DNA of 64,000 nucleotides from Actinomycetota bacterium (GTDB taxonomy: Bacteria; Actinomycetota; Thermoleophilia; Gaiellales; F1-60-MAGs149). Shown here one piece after another: positions 12,943-31,824 of this stretch (within the stretch, counting starts at the first letter, position 1; each line of letters opens with the position of its first letter). Under the pieces are notes generated by a model that had not been told where the DNA came from, did no database searches, and worked only from the letters and a program-made list of their open reading frames with translations. The position numbers and the translations under genes were made by a program. The stretch covers positions 310,001-374,000 of the forward strand of contig JAPLCF010000030.1 of NCBI GenBank assembly GCA_026392355.1, read 5' to 3'.

Positions 12943-14190
12943 CTAGAAGCGGCGGTCGGGACGCATCGGTGCCACCCAGGCGGGTGCCGCGCCGTCGAGG
13001 ATCATCTCGGCCAGCAGCGCACCGGTCGACGGCGCCAGCGTGACCCCAAGCATCCCGTGGCCGGTGGCGAGAAACAAGCCGTTGTGCCCGGGCACGGGAC
13101 CCAGGAGCGGGAGCGAGTCAGGCGTCGCCGGGCGGAAGCCCGCCCACCCCTCCACGCTCGTCTCGCTGGTCGAGGGATGCCAGTCGGAGAGGTACGAGCA
13201 GGCGTCCTTGACGACGACGTCCAGGCGACGCTTGTCGATCGTCAGATCCTTGCCCGGCAGCTCGAAGACGCCGGCAATGCGTACGCCCTCGTCGAACCCG
13301 GAGACGCCGATCTTCGACTCGGTCATGTAGAGCGCCTGCGATGGTCGCGTGCCGTCGCCCTTGAGCGTGATCGAGTAGCCCTTAGCCGGCACGATCGGTA
13401 CGTCGATACCGAGCGGCTTGAGCAGCGCCGGACTGAGAGCACCGGTCGCGACAACAACGCGATCTGCCTGCACAGGACCGCCGCTCGTGCTGACCTCCCA
13501 GCCGGACGTCGTCTGGCGCATGCCCGTCACGCTCGTCTGCTCACGCACCTCATGACCGAGTGCGACGACTCGATCGGCCAGGCCGCGCATCAGCGTCTGC
13601 GGCTGCACGTAGCGGTCGATCGTCGTGCGCACCACGAACTTCACGTCGTCACCGATGGCCGGCTCAATCGCGCGGGCCTCTTCCGGCGTGAGCGTCTCGA
13701 TCTGGCCCTCAAAGCCGATCTTCTGCAGGTCCTCGAAGACCGGGCCGAACCACGCAATGCCCTTCTCCGTCTTACCGAGCGTCAGGATGCCACCCGAGTG
13801 CATCTCGAACGGGATGCCGTCGGCCGCATACGCGTCCAACACCTCGAAGGTACGGCGGTTGAGGTTATGCAGCGCCTCGACGCCCTTCAGGAAGCGCTCG
13901 CGCGACGCCGCGCCACGGAACGCCCACAACCAGCGCAGCCAACGGGTGTCGAGCTCGGGTCGAATCACGAGGGCGCCATTGGGATCGAAGGCGCTCTTCA
14001 TGCCCATCATCAGGGTGCCAGGCGAGGCGAGCGGGAACGAGATCGTCGGCGAGACCCAGCCGGTGTTGCCTTTCGACGCGCCTTCGCCGATCACATCGCG
14101 CTCGAGCACGACGACCTCTGCGCCCTTCTGCGCCAGCGACCACGCGCAGGCCAGGCCCACGACCCCGCCACCAATGATCGCCACGCGCAT
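12943..14190 (-). CDS. dadA: D-amino acid dehydrogenase small subunit family FAD oxidoreductase
   Basis: MRVAIIGGGVVGLACAWSLAQKGAEVVVLERD, GWAGFRPATPDSLPLLGPVPGHNGLFLATGHGMLGVT. Confidence 0.88.
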   Translation of the reverse strand: MRVAIIGGGVVGLACAWSLAQKGAEVVVLERDVIGEGASKGNTGWVSPTISFPLASPGTLMMGMKSAFDPNGALVIRPELDTRWLRWLWAFRGAASRERFLKGVEALHNLNRRTFEVLDAYAADGIPFEMHSGGILTLGKTEKGIAWFGPVFEDLQKIGFEGQIETLTPEEARAIEPAIGDDVKFVVRTTIDRYVQPQTLMRGLADRVVALGHEVREQTSVTGMRQTTSGWEVSTSGGPVQADRVVVATGALSPALLKPLGIDVPIVPAKGYSITLKGDGTRPSQALYMTESKIGVSGFDEGVRIAGVFELPGKDLTIDKRRLDVVVKDACSYLSDWHPSTSETSVEGWAGFRPATPDSLPLLGPVPGHNGLFLATGHGMLGVTLAPSTGALLAEMILDGAAPAWVAPMRPDRRF

Positions 14191-24126: not shown

Positions 24127-25206
24127 TCAGAAGACGCGCTTGCCGAAGGCGAGACGGTCCTTGTAGTAGCCCTTGTCCCAGCGGGCGAGCGCGATGCCCT
24201 GGCCCGACGACTGGATGAAGAGCTGGCTCGAGATGGCCATGCCCGTGTGCCCAACGCTGCCCGAGGCAGCGTTGACGCCACCGGTACCGAAGAGCAGCAC
24301 GTCGGCGGGCAGGATCTTGTCGGCCGTGAGGCGCTGCTCGGCCGGCGTCTTGCCTGCCATCTCGTACGTCGTGCGACCACCCAGCGCCTTGGCGACCGTC
24401 TTCGGCGACGTCGGGTCGAGCGCAGTCACCCGCCACACGAAGCCGGAGCAGTCGAAACCGCCAGCCGTGTTGGCACCGAACAGGATCTGCGGCTTCTCGG
24501 AGGTGCCGCCCCAGATGTAGGGCATGCCGATGAAGTCGAAGCCGCGCTGAATCGCGTCGTGCTGGGGGCCGGTGGTCGGGGGCACTGCCGCGAGTAGCTC
24601 GACCGTGTCGATCGCGTCCTGCTTCTCCCAGCCGCCCCACTTCAGCATCTGCGCGGCGCTCCAGATGGCGTCACCACGGGAGGCCTGCTCGTACCAGGCA
24701 TGCTCCTTGCTGTCGTCGGCCTGGTCCAAGTTCGTGCGCAGACGCAGCAGACGAGCGACGATCTCGTAGCCGACACCCGGGCGGGCCACATAGCCGGCCT
24801 GCGTGATCAGCTGCTCGGCACGAACTGCCGTCGCATCAAGACCAGCAGCCGCCACGAAGGCCTGATCCACGTCGCCGAGGGTGACGGGCTGGCCGGCGGG
24901 GATCTGACGCACCTTCTTCGCCGCCTTGGGCTGTGCTGCCATCACGAACGCGGTCAGAGAAGGACCGTCGAGCACGCCGTCCGGGTCGATCGTGTCGCCC
25001 GTCACACCGGGAAATGCGCCCGTGTTCAGGACGGTCACGATGGCGCTGCTCACCCAGCTGCGCGTGGTGGGCGCCTGGACGAGCGCCGCAACCGGCTTCT
25101 TCTTGACCGGCTTGCGCTTCTTGCGCTTGGCGTCTGCAACGCCGCTGCACGCCACGAGGGCGATCAGGACGAGGGCGATGGTCTTGGTGAGGCGGTGTGT
25201 AGTCAT
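24127..25206 (-). CDS. secreted C40 (NlpC/P60) family peptidase
   Basis: Signal peptide plus GGFDCSGFVWRVTAL, LPADVLLFGTGGVNAASGSVGHTGMAIS. Confidence 0.85.
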   Translation of the reverse strand: MTTHRLTKTIALVLIALVACSGVADAKRKKRKPVKKKPVAALVQAPTTRSWVSSAIVTVLNTGAFPGVTGDTIDPDGVLDGPSLTAFVMAAQPKAAKKVRQIPAGQPVTLGDVDQAFVAAAGLDATAVRAEQLITQAGYVARPGVGYEIVARLLRLRTNLDQADDSKEHAWYEQASRGDAIWSAAQMLKWGGWEKQDAIDTVELLAAVPPTTGPQHDAIQRGFDFIGMPYIWGGTSEKPQILFGANTAGGFDCSGFVWRVTALDPTSPKTVAKALGGRTTYEMAGKTPAEQRLTADKILPADVLLFGTGGVNAASGSVGHTGMAISSQLFIQSSGQGIALARWDKGYYKDRLAFGKRVF

Positions 25207-25227
25207 CGTTGTGATAGACGGTTAAGG

Positions 25228-25449
25228 GTCTCTCCGTAACCCTGAGGCTATGTTCCTCAGGTGGGGATCGAGACTCTATGGGTACCCCACTCTACACCGC
25301 AAGCTCCTGGCGGTTGCGCTTTCGTAACTGTCTCAAGTAAACCCTGAGGGTATCCCCCATTCTTGGCTCTGTTGAGCGGTAAATGAGGTCATGGGGAAAC
25401 GTAACGGACGCGTCACGATGTCGCCCAAAGTCTCAACCAATACCTGAGG
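25228..25449. repeat. three direct copies of a 20-bp element GTCTC(A/T)(A/C)N4-5(A)CCTGAGG upstream of the NlpC/P60 gene
   Basis: Copies at 25228-25247, 25330-25349 and 25430-25449, identical internal spacing (GTCTC to CCTGAGG = 13 bp). Confidence 0.65.
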
Positions 25450-25460
25450 AAGGTGCGATT

Positions 25461-25481
25461 GAGGGTCAGACAGTGACCCTC
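25461..25481 (-). terminator. hairpin immediately 3' of hisA
   Basis: GAGGGTCA-GACAG-TGACCCTC perfect 8-bp stem; no clear U-tract. Confidence 0.45.
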
Positions 25482-25496
25482 CGCAGAGGTTGAGAG

Positions 25497-26249
25497 TTAC
25501 GCCGAGGCGTGCAGTAGAGCGGCGATCTGCGAGGGGTCGTCGAGCAGCGCTCGACCAACGACCGCGCCGGCACAGCCGAGCGCTCGGACCGCGTGGACGT
25601 CGTCGGGGGTCGTCACCCCTCCCGCGGCAATCACCGCGGCAGTTGGAACCGCGGCGCGTACCGCTCGGAGCAGATCCTCGTCGGGACCACCGAGGGTCCC
25701 GTCGCGATCGATGCCCGTGATCAACAGCGTCTCGACCCCAAGTTCCACGACGGCGCGTGCCGCGTCATCAACGCGGATACCCGCGTCTTCGACCCAACCG
25801 CTGACGCGAACCGTTCCCTGGCGGCTATCGAGCGCCACGGCAATCGGGCTACCGTGACGTTCGACGAGCTCGCCGAGCATCTGTGGATCGCGAAGTGCCA
25901 TTGTGCCGATCAGCACGCGATCGACACCCTGCGCGAGCAACGTCTCGACGGATTCCGCCGATCGCAACCCACCACCGACCTGGAGAATCGCTCCAGGTGG
26001 CTTCGTGGCAGCGAGTTCCGCGATGATCGAGATATTGGGCTCAGCGGGAGCGCCGGTCCGGGCCGCGTCCAGATCGATGATATGCAGTGCGGTGGCGCCT
26101 GCCTCCCAGATCATCGCGGCGCGCACGCGGGCGTCGTCCAGCTCGTTCGTCAGCATGTGATCGAACTGCCCATGCAGCAGCCGCACGGCCCGTCCGTCGA
26201 TCAGATCGATGGCGGGATAGAGGCGGTAGTTGGCGGGTGTCGATGTCAC
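25497..26249 (-). CDS. hisA: phosphoribosylformimino-5-aminoimidazole carboxamide ribotide isomerase
   Basis: YRLYPAIDLIDGRAVRLLHGQF, LQVGGGLRS, TDIDRDGT-like LITGIDRDGTLGGPD, AAGGVTTPDDV; GTG start. Confidence 0.94.
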   Translation of the reverse strand: MTSTPANYRLYPAIDLIDGRAVRLLHGQFDHMLTNELDDARVRAAMIWEAGATALHIIDLDAARTGAPAEPNISIIAELAATKPPGAILQVGGGLRSAESVETLLAQGVDRVLIGTMALRDPQMLGELVERHGSPIAVALDSRQGTVRVSGWVEDAGIRVDDAARAVVELGVETLLITGIDRDGTLGGPDEDLLRAVRAAVPTAAVIAAGGVTTPDDVHAVRALGCAGAVVGRALLDDPSQIAALLHASA

Positions 26250-26250
26250 T

Positions 26251-26268
26251 GTGTTAGCATGCTAACAC
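26251..26268. promoter_or_regulatory. 18-bp perfect palindrome GTGTTAGCATGCTAACAC, candidate operator/divergent promoter
   Basis: Fills the 20-bp gap between hisA (GTG, minus) and the TrpR-like gene (ATG, plus) symmetrically. Confidence 0.85.
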
Positions 26269-26269
26269 G

Positions 26270-26578
26270 ATGACCCAACCGACTGACCCCAGCGACTGGC
26301 GCAGCCCCTCGGTCGAGCAGCTCGCCGACGTGCTTGTCTCGATCGACAACCGTGAGTCGATGCTCGCCTTCCTGCGTGACGTCTGCTCGCACAACGAGTT
26401 GAGTACGCTGGCCCAGCGTCTCGAGGTTGCGCGCCTCGTCGACCAGGGCGTGCCGTACGCCGAGGTGGCCCGTCGACTCAGTGCCTCTACGGCCACGGTC
26501 ACGCGCGTGGCGCAGTGGCTGCGGCATGGCGAGGGCGGCTATCGCGCCGTGCTCGATGCAGAAAGGGTCGACGCATGA
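26270..26578 (+). CDS. TrpR-like YerC/YecD family regulator (candidate histidine regulator)
   Basis: LRDVCSHNELSTLAQRLEVARLVDQGVPYAEVARRLSASTATVTRVAQWLRHGEGGY, characteristic of the TrpR/YerC family. Confidence 0.9.
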   Translation: MTQPTDPSDWRSPSVEQLADVLVSIDNRESMLAFLRDVCSHNELSTLAQRLEVARLVDQGVPYAEVARRLSASTATVTRVAQWLRHGEGGYRAVLDAERVDA

Positions 26579-27435
26579 TCAACAGCACGCTTCGTATCGC
26601 CGTTCCCTCCAAGGGACGACTGGCTGCTCCAACGGTCGCGCTGTTGCAGGCTGCTGGCATTCCCGTGCCGGCCGACGATCGCCGCCTCCTTGTCCCCGTG
26701 CCCGATCAGAACGTCGAGTTGCTGTTTGCGCGCACCGACGACATCCCCACGCTGATCCGCGACGGCGCTGCAGACGTCGGCGTCGCCGGCAGCAACCAGC
26801 TGCTGGAGTACGGCAGCGACGGCGTTGAGGAGCTCTCGCGGCTCGGCTTCGGCGCCTGCCGGCTGGATATCGCTGTCCCCATTGACTCCACGATCCGCAC
26901 GACAGCTGATCTGACGGGTCGGCGCATTGCGACCTCCCACCCCGTCGTGCTCAAGGCGTACCTCGCCGAGCACGGGATCGATGCGATCGTCGTCACGCTG
27001 ACGGGCTCCGTCGAGCTCGCTCCGACGATCGGCGCCGCCGACGCGGTGTGCGACCTCGTGTCGACCGGCGAGACGCTGCGGCAAAACGGGCTGCGACCGA
27101 TCGAGACCATTCTGCGATCCGAGGCGGTGCTGCTTGGCGCCGCCGACCAACGCGACGCAGCGGGTATCGCCGTGCTGTGCACCGCGATTGAGTCGGTGCT
27201 GGCTGCTCGCCCCAAGCGCTATCTGATGCTGAACGCACCCGATGGATCGCTCGACGCAATCGTCAGCCTGCTCCCTGGCATCGATGCACCCACGATCCTG
27301 CCGTTGGCGCGCTCCGACATGCACGCTGTCCACGCGGTCGTCGATGCAGCAGACCTTCCGCGGCTACTGCATCCTCTCAAGGAAGCCGGTGCGTCCGGCC
27401 TCCTCGTCCTCCCGATTGAGCACCTAATCCCATGA
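26575..27435 (+). CDS. hisG: ATP phosphoribosyltransferase
   Basis: LRIAVPSKGRLAAPTVALLQAAGI, DGAADVGVAGSNQL, DLVSTGETLRQNGLRPIE. Confidence 0.95.
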   Translation: MINSTLRIAVPSKGRLAAPTVALLQAAGIPVPADDRRLLVPVPDQNVELLFARTDDIPTLIRDGAADVGVAGSNQLLEYGSDGVEELSRLGFGACRLDIAVPIDSTIRTTADLTGRRIATSHPVVLKAYLAEHGIDAIVVTLTGSVELAPTIGAADAVCDLVSTGETLRQNGLRPIETILRSEAVLLGAADQRDAAGIAVLCTAIESVLAARPKRYLMLNAPDGSLDAIVSLLPGIDAPTILPLARSDMHAVHAVVDAADLPRLLHPLKEAGASGLLVLPIEHLIP

Positions 27436-29135
27436 CTGATCTCGATATCCCCTGGATCCGCCCCGAGCTGGCCCAGCCCTCGCCCTACCGCTGGCAGGAG
27501 GGCATTCCCGACGAGGTCGTGGCGCGCTTTGACCTCAATACGCTGCCGCTCAATCCCTCGTGGTGGCCGGGTATCGCCCGAACGATCGCTGCGCAGTCCG
27601 TCAGCTCGTACCCCGAAGCCGACTACGCACCGCTCAAGCGGGCGATCGCCAGCTACCTCGAGATCGATGCGGCCTGCGTCGTGCCAACCGCCGGCGGCGA
27701 TGAGGCAATCCTGCTGACGGCCTGGCTCGCGCTGGGCCGTGGCGATCGCGCCGTGGTTGGGCGCCCCACGTACCAGCTGCACGCCGCGAGCGTCCGCATG
27801 ACGGGCGCCGAGGTCGATTTGGTCGATCCGCTGCCCGGTCCTGCGCTACGCCTCGATCTCGACACGATCGCGGAGAAGGCCAAGGGCGCTCGCCTCGTCT
27901 GGCTCTGCTCGCCCAACAACCCAACCGGCGAGGATATCCCGGCCGACAAGATCCGCGAGATCGCGGCGAACTGCCAAGGCCTCGTCTGCGTCGACCAGGC
28001 CTACCTCGAATTCGGCGGCTCGACGGATCATCTGGCGCTGCTCGACGAGTTGCCAAACATCGTCTTCGTCCGCACGTTCTCAAAGGGCTGGGGCATGGGC
28101 GCATTGCGCGCCGGCTATGCCATCGCCAACCCGCTGGTCGCCGGTGCCATGGATGCCCTGCGCCCGCCGGGCTCCCTCTCCACCGGCTCCGCCCTCGGCG
28201 CCGAGCTCGCGTGCGGACACGCGGACACCATGCGCGTGGATACCGCCAACTATCGCGCCGAACGCGAGCGCCTCAGTGCCGGCTTCCGCGAGCTCGGACT
28301 CGAGATCATTGGCGAGGCCGCGAACTTCGTCTGTGCCCGCACACCCTGGTCTGGCGACGAACTCTTCGGCAAACTCGCGAGCCGCGGGCTGATCGTGCGC
28401 ACCTTCGGGCATGAGCCGCTACTCGCCGATGCCTTCCGGGCCTGTGTGGCGGTGCCGGCCGACAACGACAAGCTGCTGGCGGCGCTCGCCGACCTGCTCG
28501 GCAAGCCGGCTCCGGCCCCCGCCGATCCCACCGTCGGGGCCAGCACGTTCGGACGTGGCGCGCTCATCGAGCGGCGCACGAAGGAGACCGACATTCGCCT
28601 GCGGGCGACGCTCGACGGCAGCGGCAATGCGCGCATTGCCACCGGGGTCGGCTTCCTCGATCACATGCTGACCGCGCTCGGGCACCACTCGTTGATGGAT
28701 CTCGACCTGGCCTGCACCGGCGACACGCACATCGACCCGCACCACACGGTCGAGGACTGCGGCATCGTGCTCGGCCAGGCGATCGACGCAGCGCTCGGCG
28801 ACCGTGCCGGCATCACCCGCTTCGGCGATGCCTCGGCCCCGCTCGATGAGGCACTCGGCCGGGCCACCGTCGACTTCTCTGGTCGCGGCTCGAGCACCGT
28901 ACGCATCAACTTCACCGACACGATGATCGGCGAGCTACCGACGTCGCTGATCCCGCACCTGATCGACTGCATCGCGATCAATGCTCGCGCCACGATCCAT
29001 GTGGAGGCAAGCGGCGAGGACGACCATCACATTGCCGAGGCAGCCTTCAAGGCATTGGCCCGTGCCCTGCGTGAGGCCTGGTCGATGGATCCGCGGCGTG
29101 GCACGCAGATCGCGTCCACCAAGGGCTCGCTCTGA
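27432..29135 (+). CDS. hisCB: fused histidinol-phosphate aminotransferase / imidazoleglycerol-phosphate dehydratase
   Basis: N-terminus HisC (CSPNNPTGEDIP, FVRTFSKGWGMGALRAGYAIA); C-terminus HisB (RRTKETDIRL, GVGFLDHMLTALGHHSLMDL, HHTVEDCGIVLGQAID, DHHIAEAAFKALARAL) in one uninterrupted 567-aa ORF. Confidence 0.95.
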   Translation: MTDLDIPWIRPELAQPSPYRWQEGIPDEVVARFDLNTLPLNPSWWPGIARTIAAQSVSSYPEADYAPLKRAIASYLEIDAACVVPTAGGDEAILLTAWLALGRGDRAVVGRPTYQLHAASVRMTGAEVDLVDPLPGPALRLDLDTIAEKAKGARLVWLCSPNNPTGEDIPADKIREIAANCQGLVCVDQAYLEFGGSTDHLALLDELPNIVFVRTFSKGWGMGALRAGYAIANPLVAGAMDALRPPGSLSTGSALGAELACGHADTMRVDTANYRAERERLSAGFRELGLEIIGEAANFVCARTPWSGDELFGKLASRGLIVRTFGHEPLLADAFRACVAVPADNDKLLAALADLLGKPAPAPADPTVGASTFGRGALIERRTKETDIRLRATLDGSGNARIATGVGFLDHMLTALGHHSLMDLDLACTGDTHIDPHHTVEDCGIVLGQAIDAALGDRAGITRFGDASAPLDEALGRATVDFSGRGSSTVRINFTDTMIGELPTSLIPHLIDCIAINARATIHVEASGEDDHHIAEAAFKALARALREAWSMDPRRGTQIASTKGSL

Positions 29136-29136
29136 C

Positions 29137-29745
29137 GTGACCGCCGTTACGGTCGTCGACTACGGCGGCGGCAACGTTCGCTCGTTGTGTGCCGCGCTCG
29201 AGCGGTGTGGCGCTGCGGTTACGGTTTCTGCGGATCCCGACGTAGTGGCGGCTTCTCCACGACTAATGCTTGCCGGCCAAGGCGCCGCCGGTGCAGCCAT
29301 GCGGGCTCTCGACTCCACGGGGCTCGCTGAGGCATTGCGCGACTCCGCGCGCCGCCACGTACCGCTCCTCGGCGTCTGCGTGGGTCTCCAGGTGCTGTTC
29401 GACCACTCGGACGAGGACGACTGCACGTGCTTGGGTCTGCTGCACGGGTCGGTGCACCGGATCCAGGGTGCTGAGCGTCTGCCCCATCTCGGCTGGAACG
29501 ACGTCGAGCCGCTGATTGAGCACCTGCTCACGCAGGATCTGCCGGCCATCACCTACTTCGCCCACTCGTACGCGGTCACGGCGGACATCCCGTCCGCGGT
29601 GGCTGTGACACGCATCGATCAGGCGACGATCGCTTCGGTGGTGGCGCGTGGCTCCATCGCCGGTGCGCAGTTTCACCCCGAGCGGTCTTCGGAGGCTGGG
29701 CGCCAGCTGCTGCGCCGCTTCCTCGCCTGGGATGGGAGCCACTGA
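29137..29745 (+). CDS. hisH: imidazole glycerol phosphate synthase glutaminase subunit
   Basis: VTVVDYGGGNVRSL, LLGVCVGLQVLFD, LPHLGWN, QFHPERSSEAG. Confidence 0.92.
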   Translation: MTAVTVVDYGGGNVRSLCAALERCGAAVTVSADPDVVAASPRLMLAGQGAAGAAMRALDSTGLAEALRDSARRHVPLLGVCVGLQVLFDHSDEDDCTCLGLLHGSVHRIQGAERLPHLGWNDVEPLIEHLLTQDLPAITYFAHSYAVTADIPSAVAVTRIDQATIASVVARGSIAGAQFHPERSSEAGRQLLRRFLAWDGSH

Positions 29746-30494
29746 TGCTGCGTCGCCGCATCATCCCCTGCCTCGACGTCTCGGGCGGCCGCGTCGTCAA
29801 GGGCGTCGAGTTCGTCAACCTGCGCGACTGTGGCGAGCCGGTCGATGCCGCGCTGCGCTACGCCGAGCAGGGTGCCGACGAGCTGTGCTGGCTCAACATC
29901 ACCGCGGGCGATGAGGCATGGGACCAGCTGTTGACGCAGGTCGCTGATGCCGGCACGCGAATCGACGTGCCACTCACGGTCGGTGGCGGCGTCTCCGATG
30001 AGCCTCACGTGCGTGATCTCCTTGGGGCGGGCGCCGACAAGGTGTCGATCAACAGCGCAGCGCTCGATCGGCCCGACCTCGTGGCCGAATGTGCCGAGCG
30101 CCATGGGTCGCAATGCATCGTGGTGGCTATCGATGCCCGCCGTACGGGCGACGTCTGGGAGGCAGTTGCCTCTGGCGGTCGTCGCGCGACCGGACGCAAT
30201 GCGGTCGATTGGGCACGCGAGGCCGTGGAGCGAGGCGCGGGCGAGCTCCTGGTGACGAGCATGGACTCCGACGGCACACAGCGCGGCTATGCACTCGATC
30301 TCTACGAGCGTTTGCTCGCGGCAGTCGACGTGCCGATCATCGCCTCGGGCGGTGCCAGCAGTCCCGCCGACATTGCCGACGTCTTGGAGCTCGGCGTCTC
30401 CGCCGCCTTGGCTGCGAGCATCTTCCATGACGGCATCCACACAGTCGAGGAGGTGAAGCACACATGTCGGGAACGGAACCTACCGATGCGCTGA
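29745..30494 (+). CDS. hisF: imidazole glycerol phosphate synthase cyclase subunit
   Basis: [33 protein letters not shown]. Confidence 0.96.
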
Positions 30495-31108
30495 CGCTCA
30501 CAGGCACGCCGCGCTTTGACGACGATGGGCTGATCCCCGCGATCTGCCAGGACACCATTGATGGCTCGGTGCTGATGCTCGCGTGGATGAACGCCGAGGC
30601 GCTCGACCGCACGCTCTCCACCCGTCACGCCTGGTTCTGGTCGCGCTCGCGTCAAGAGCTATGGGAGAAGGGTGCAACCAGCGGCAACGTGCTCACGGTC
30701 CAGGACCTGCGCCTCGACTGCGACCAAGATGCATTGCTCGTGATGGTCTCCCCTGCTGGTCCCGCCTGCCATACCGGTGCACGCACCTGCTGGGGCGACG
30801 ACGCCGGCCCTCTGCTCACGCGTCTGGCGGGCACGATCGAGTCGCGCCGCGGCGCCGACCCGGAAACGTCGTACGTTGCGCGTCTGCTCGGCTCTGACCG
30901 CTCACTCGCTGCCGGCAAGGTCGCCGAGGAGTCGGCCGAGGTGCTCGATGCCGCACCGGGCTCCGACCAGCAGGTCGAGGAAGCCGCCGACGTGCTGTTC
31001 CACCTGCTGGCGCTCCTGGCCCGTGACGGCGTTGATCCCCTGCGCGTGCTGGACGTGCTCGCGCAGCGCGAGGGCCTGCCGCCGCGCTGGCTACGAGACG
31101 CCACGTGA
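30464..31108 (+). CDS. hisIE: bifunctional phosphoribosyl-AMP cyclohydrolase/phosphoribosyl-ATP diphosphatase
   Basis: [39 protein letters not shown]-terminal [13 protein letters not shown]...[14 protein letters not shown]. Confidence 0.93.
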
Positions 31109-31824
31109 GCGACGCCCCCGACCAGTACGAGCCCATCTCCGAGATCTACGACGCGTGGTGCCTTGAAGTTCAGGAAGACATCGGCTTCTACATCGGCATG
31201 GCGCTTGGCACAGAGACAAAGGTCGTGGAACTCGCAGCCGGCACTGGCCGCATCGCGATCCCACTGGCCCTGTCGGGCTATGACGTGATCGCCATCGATC
31301 GCTCCGAGCCGATGCTCGACCTGCTGCGCGGTAAGGCGGCGGAGGCGGGCGCTACCGAGCGGATCGACGTCCGTGTCGGCGACCTCACCGCCCCCGGCAT
31401 CGAGGGCCGGTACGACCGCGTGCTGGTGCCGTTCCGCAGCCTGCTCCACCTCGCCACCGACGAGGAGCGTCTTGCCGCCTTCCGCGCCATGCACCAGCTC
31501 CTCACGCCCGATGGCTATCTCGCCTTCGACGTCTTCAGCCCTACCCCCGCAGACATCACGGCCACCCACCGAGTCTGGCACCACCGGGATTCGGGCGCGA
31601 AGGAACGAGCCGACTGGAACCGTCCAGACGGCACCACGCACGTCGAGGTCGAGATGCGTGGTCGCACCACCACACTCGTCCTCCACCCACTCCCGGCCAA
31701 ACGCTGGCTCGAGCTCGTCGAAGAGGCGGGCTTCGAAGTAATCACCACCTGGGGCGGCTTCGACGGCGAAAAGGTGCGCGGTGACGGCACCGGCGATCTC
31801 GTCATCGTGGCGCAGCCGCTCTAG
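31105..31824 (+). CDS. class I SAM-dependent methyltransferase
   Basis: [39 protein letters not shown]. Confidence 0.88.

Follow-up and report, generated by a model that had tools for sequence, protein, structure and literature searches.

A conserved 20-bp palindrome between hisA and hisR as a predicted HisR operator in Thermoleophilia and Acidimicrobiia

The hisA–hisR locus and its regulator

The window, i.e. the whole 64,000-nt stretch of DNA analysed here, comes from a freshwater actinobacterium with a source-genome size of 2.4 Mb, and its local G+C content is 67%. It carries hisA on the minus strand and, facing away from it, a his operon headed by a gene for a TrpR-family regulator, with the following features:

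25497–26249, minus strand: hisA, 250 aa, GTG start at 26249–26247, PF00977 at 195.5 bits
26250–26269, no strand: predicted HisR operator, 20-bp frame TGTGTTAGCATGCTAACACG, the entire hisA–hisR gap
26252–26260, plus strand: candidate extended −10 TGT-TAGCAT of the hisR–hisG operon, 9 bp before the ATG
26259–26267, minus strand: candidate extended −10 TGT-TAGCAT of hisA, 9 bp before the GTG, proposed from the palindrome symmetry
26270–26578, plus strand: hisR, TrpR-family regulator of YerC/YecD type, 102 aa, ATG at 26270
26575–27435, plus strand: hisG, PF01634 and PF08029, overlapping the hisR stop (ATGA)
27432–29135, plus strand: hisC–hisB fusion, 567 aa, PF00155 at 42–350 and PF00475 at 404–546
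29137–29745, plus strand: hisH, PF00117
29745–30494, plus strand: hisF, PF00977 at 236.8 bits
30464–31108, plus strand: hisIE fusion, PF01502 and PF01503

The hisC–hisB product thus unites an aminotransferase and an IGPD in one protein, and hisD lies on a different contig from the hisA–hisR locus. For the hisA protein, the top NCBIfam match was TIGR00007 at 203.9 bits, under its cut-off of 228.95. An Rfam search of 24500–31500, taken up to E = 1, yielded nothing relevant to a T-box or his attenuator near hisA–hisR–hisG, and such control of the his genes was rejected on this basis.

The hisR product matched PF01371 (E 4.8e-21) and scored 74.6 bits against TIGR02531 (YerC/YecD; cut-off 42.2), bearing out the first-pass annotation of a TrpR/YerC/YecD-type regulator; against the TrpR equivalog TIGR01321 it reached 27.1 bits, under the cut-off of 67.25, which places it outside TrpR proper. 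Judged by these profiles, the window regulator is HisR of the YerC/YecD type. By our own alignment to TrpR numbering, residues A80, T81, T83 and R84 are kept in the window protein. Its relatives of solved structure are 3KOR, 3FRW and 3G1C, the last of which is named HisR in PMC9413887.

The first-pass annotation had described a perfect 18-bp palindrome 1 bp off both start codons with a TAGCAT on each strand 9 bp from each start, and the sequence agreed on both counts: GTGTTAGCATGCTAACAC occupies 26251–26268, a single base separates its ends from the hisA GTG and the hisR ATG, and the hexamers lie at 26255–26260 (plus) and 26264–26259 (minus). The gap is AT-rich within the 67% G+C DNA, and an exact TTAGCATGCTAA occurs once in the whole 2.4-Mb genome. 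Under a first-order Markov model 0.77 perfect palindromes of at least 18 bp are expected per window versus 2 observed, so palindromy was rejected as evidence on its own, and what carries the case is where the site lies, its composition and its conservation. The second perfect 18-bp palindrome, GGCAATGCGCGCATTGCC at 28623–28640 within the hisC–hisB coding region, is probably due to chance.

Conservation of the gap palindrome

The closest named records were genomes of lake actinobacteria, of which several carry the label Thermoleophilia and one the label Gaiellales, followed by relatives labelled Acidimicrobiaceae or Acidimicrobiales and a few labelled Chloroflexi or Acidobacteria, all labels being those on the records and taken at face value. 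The order hisA(−)–hisR(+)–hisG(+) was found in 80 of 80 named loci. An iterated palindromic 20-mer model, built over 96 distinct hisA–hisR regions from Thermoleophilia, Acidimicrobiia and the few records labelled Chloroflexi or Acidobacteria, was present in 95 of them at 15–31 bits, compared with a mean best score of −9 bits and a 99th percentile of 6.5 in shuffled regions; the sole region without a match, L064, ends in a run of N. The check named by the first-pass annotation, relatives that keep the gene pair and lose the palindrome, thus turned up no case beyond that run of N. The 95 sites gave the consensus CRTGTTAGCATGCTAACAYG, and in the window the model scored 31.1 bits at the operator and 3.2 bits at the next separate site. 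Taking the aligned sites together, we consider the conservation of the gap palindrome decisive.

Within the window's genus (12 loci), the 20-mer was identical in eight loci and differed by one or two bases in four, and in all 12 the 20-mer is abutted by the start codons of both genes, ATG or GTG for hisA and ATG for hisR, although the protein N-termini diverge. Two loci with other DNA between hisA and hisR, L083 and L096, carry two operator clusters, one per gene, and the palindromic symmetry is retained there despite the hisA relocation. When 464 kb around the loci was scanned, scores above 10 bits elsewhere were found only at these separate hisA and hisR operators. An own operator beside a relocated hisA is the best evidence that hisA is a target, and it lends support to the control of hisA that had been claimed from the sequence of the window. 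In G013 and G015, of the same family, the operator lies at hisR, hisA is about 500–650 bp off and no second site was found near it; these two genomes count against universality of the hisA operator.

Promoter elements, half-sites and a proposed two-way switch

In Actinobacteria, leaderless genes are marked by TA-like signals that lie about 12 bp ahead of the start (PMC3160421), the extended −10 reads TGN-TANNNT and TGNTANNNT gives the strongest Mycobacterium tuberculosis promoters (PMC3898074). The window resembles these in having TANNNT 9 nt before both starts, a TGN extension and no SD-like motif, the motif combination looked for in a leaderless pair, and the same hisA −10 spacing recurs in 12 of 12 genus loci; it differs from them in that a single repressor palindrome holds two overlapping elements of this kind and that the first T of TANNNT lies 15 bp before the start in the genus versus 12, a spacing about 3 bp longer. 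Among the 95 loci, TANNNT was found 5–10 nt upstream of the hisR start in 86 and an SD-like motif in 5, and the corresponding numbers for hisA were 29 and 3; in Acidimicrobiia a TANNNT precedes the hisR ATG by exactly 6 nt. Because the hexamer is built into the operator half-site, its presence near a start is partly automatic and thus a weak sign of leaderless transcription. For the same reason, the twin divergent −10 elements that had been suggested fit the TAGCAT placement but remain candidates as promoters. A sigma-70-type −35/−10 pair was not found at the window site, where no obvious −35 occurs, and was rejected for the gap.

Secondary matches of the model are confined to offsets of 8 and 16 bp. 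Part of the 8-bp signal reflects self-similarity of the motif (unit CATGCTAA), and the argument that such matches prove tandem dimers in the window was therefore rejected. Outside the window's genus, and only there, the repeat extends beyond the 20-mer: flanks have an identity of 0.51 at lag 8 and 0.39 at lag 16, compared with about 0.1–0.35 at lags 1–7. Tandem TrpR dimers have been described on some operators (PMC8745587), and by analogy the sister lineages probably load two or more HisR dimers, with two or three predicted for an Acidimicrobiia site such as CATAGTAGCGTTGTAGCATGCTAGCATA. The single dimer site of the first-pass annotation thus suits the window's genus, which by its sequences has one full site, and does not carry over to lineages that repeat half-sites every 8 bp.

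The sequences show that the site exists, that it is conserved and linked to hisR, and that a separated hisA retains it. The palindrome is very probably the operator of the adjacent HisR, serving a two-way shutoff of hisA and the hisR–his genes. We infer DNA binding, histidine as co-repressor, promoter occlusion and leaderless starts as follows. A histidine-activated HisR dimer would bind the 20-bp site and cover both −10 regions of a back-to-back promoter pair, and this occlusion would shut hisA on one side and hisR–hisG–hisCB–hisH–hisF–hisIE on the other; both messages would probably start at or a few bases from the start codon, and with the binding site beside its own gene HisR would autoregulate. 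In Ruminococcus gnavus the binding of HisR to its 20-bp palindrome depends on histidine (PMC9413887), and by homology with that protein histidine-bound HisR should bind here. The hisR-linked site in 95 of 96 regions supports the autoregulated switch proposed at first, controlling hisA and the regulator-led his operon. The fuller scheme of a minimal bidirectional switch, with one 20-bp HisR site over two overlapping extended −10s and an 8-bp lattice for several dimers in sister lineages, stands in our estimate at even chances.

A variant overlapping with the operator reading has HisR acting as a roadblock to transcription from promoters located upstream, inside the opposing genes. The lack of a −35 beside TAGCAT and the 15-bp distance from the first T to the start in the genus would suit it, whereas the scarcity of SD-like motifs (hisR 5/95, hisA 3/95) is what leaderless messages would be expected to show, and the exact 6-nt placement in Acidimicrobiia argues against it as well; we hold this variant to be unlikely. 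Considerably less probable is that the conserved element is a mere bidirectional twin −10 leaderless promoter, symmetric because it serves two genes across a tiny gap, with HisR acting elsewhere or inactive. The TAGCAT on each strand is indeed equidistant from both starts in the genus, and in one genome (G036, L135/L172) an ANTAR response-regulator gene that has no his link carries a near-identical copy equally far from its ATG; however, the conserved stretch is 20 bp, far beyond a TANNNT, its symmetry persists where hisA has been relocated (L083, L096), the half-sites recur at an exact 8-bp spacing, which is a hallmark of the TrpR family, and hisR and hisG are jointly absent in the order. Most improbable of all is a site for some other transcription factor or a nucleoid or repeat element, for although palindromes are generic for dimeric regulators and 0.77 are expected per window, this one is unique in the genome and hisR-linked in 95 of 96 regions, its 20-bp frame fits the published HisR/TrpR operator size, and by our own count the site agrees with the HisR motif of Proteobacteria, TGTAnTArnnnnyTnTTACA (PMC9413887), at 10 of the 14 specified positions.

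Relation to known systems and to histidine synthesis

The HisR regulon is known from Firmicutes, Proteobacteria, Coriobacteriales/Eggerthellales and Synergistetes (Ashniev et al. 2022, PMC9413887). The present locus shares with it the TIGR02531 type of regulator, a 20-bp palindrome, autoregulation as predicted here and the hisR-first operon of Proteobacteria, in which the site lies directly upstream of hisR (PMC9413887), and it differs in the one site common to divergent hisA and hisR. In the main text of PMC9413887, Actinobacteria comprise only Coriobacteriales and Eggerthellales, with hisR never his-clustered, Thermoleophilia and Acidimicrobiia are absent, and the word 'divergent' does not appear. 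Compared with the Firmicutes/Actinobacteria consensus cacTTTAnnnnnnTAAAgtg, 7 of 14 specified positions match here, short of a match to that motif; the consensus of the window lineage is unlike it and nearer the proteobacterial one, HisR motifs being lineage-specific in PMC9413887 so that a mismatch does not exclude membership. Escherichia coli TrpR has the same fold family and an operator frame of about 20 bp, and its tandem dimers (PMC8745587) parallel the 8-bp lattice of the sister lineages, whereas the window protein is under the TrpR equivalog cut-off and its gene is linked to his, not trp.

Earlier work thus already covers HisR with its operator size and autoregulation, as well as the hisR-first his operon, and the novelty lies in the lineages and the consensus, in an operator common to divergent hisA, and in the candidate twin −10 arrangement. 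HisR control of histidine synthesis would thereby be extended to Thermoleophilia and Acidimicrobiia, two large and mostly uncultured classes for which a concrete consensus is now available for regulon search, and the proposed divergent switch would be a very compact one, packing the site of the regulator, both promoters and both starts into 20 bp.

The first-pass annotation had envisaged a wider regulon including hisD, which did not hold up. No operator was found upstream of hisD (best score −16 bits), and TTAGCATGCTAA with up to two mismatches occurred at 4 places genome-wide including the operator, versus 18 for the reversed control. The three extra places lie in a urocanase (hutU-like) frame, in an unrelated long frame and before a PHP-domain gene, where a TAGCATGCTGA-like site is situated about 10 bp upstream in two genomes of the genus (L148, G000:C16 ~34885; L149, G002:C259 ~787); its score was 3.0 bits in the source genome against 0.8 bits in a relative, and the rest of the genus does not keep it. 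On these results a wider regulon in the source genome was rejected.

In one genome of the order Gaiellales, an ANTAR-like response-regulator gene has a near-identical copy of the operator, CGTGCTAGCATGCTAACACG (30.7 bits; L135:1498–1517, G036:C4 ~14112–14131), directly before its ATG, and orthologues of this gene in 29 other relative loci lack the copy. The gene may have captured the promoter/operator recently or be a new target of HisR.

Across the order, hisR was present in 37 of 61 genomes. By the HisG family model, which matched in 13 of 14 control genomes, 22 of the 24 hisR-less genomes lack HisG and the other two have a partial hisG, the pieces of which carry no hisR. That hisR goes missing together with the pathway fits a dedicated his regulator, and this loss of hisR along with hisG, like the relocated hisA that can retain its own operator, offers a natural experiment. 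The HisG-less genomes are 22 of genomes G005 and G018–G058, several of them at least 92% complete, and their gene content suggests repeated loss of histidine synthesis in the order. A divergent IGPD gene (HisB-family, PF00475) is kept in G023, G026, G029, G033, G037, G038, G040 and others that have neither HisG nor HisR, and is present in G017 and G020 as a second copy besides the his-operon one; its product may be related to IGPD but act outside histidine synthesis.
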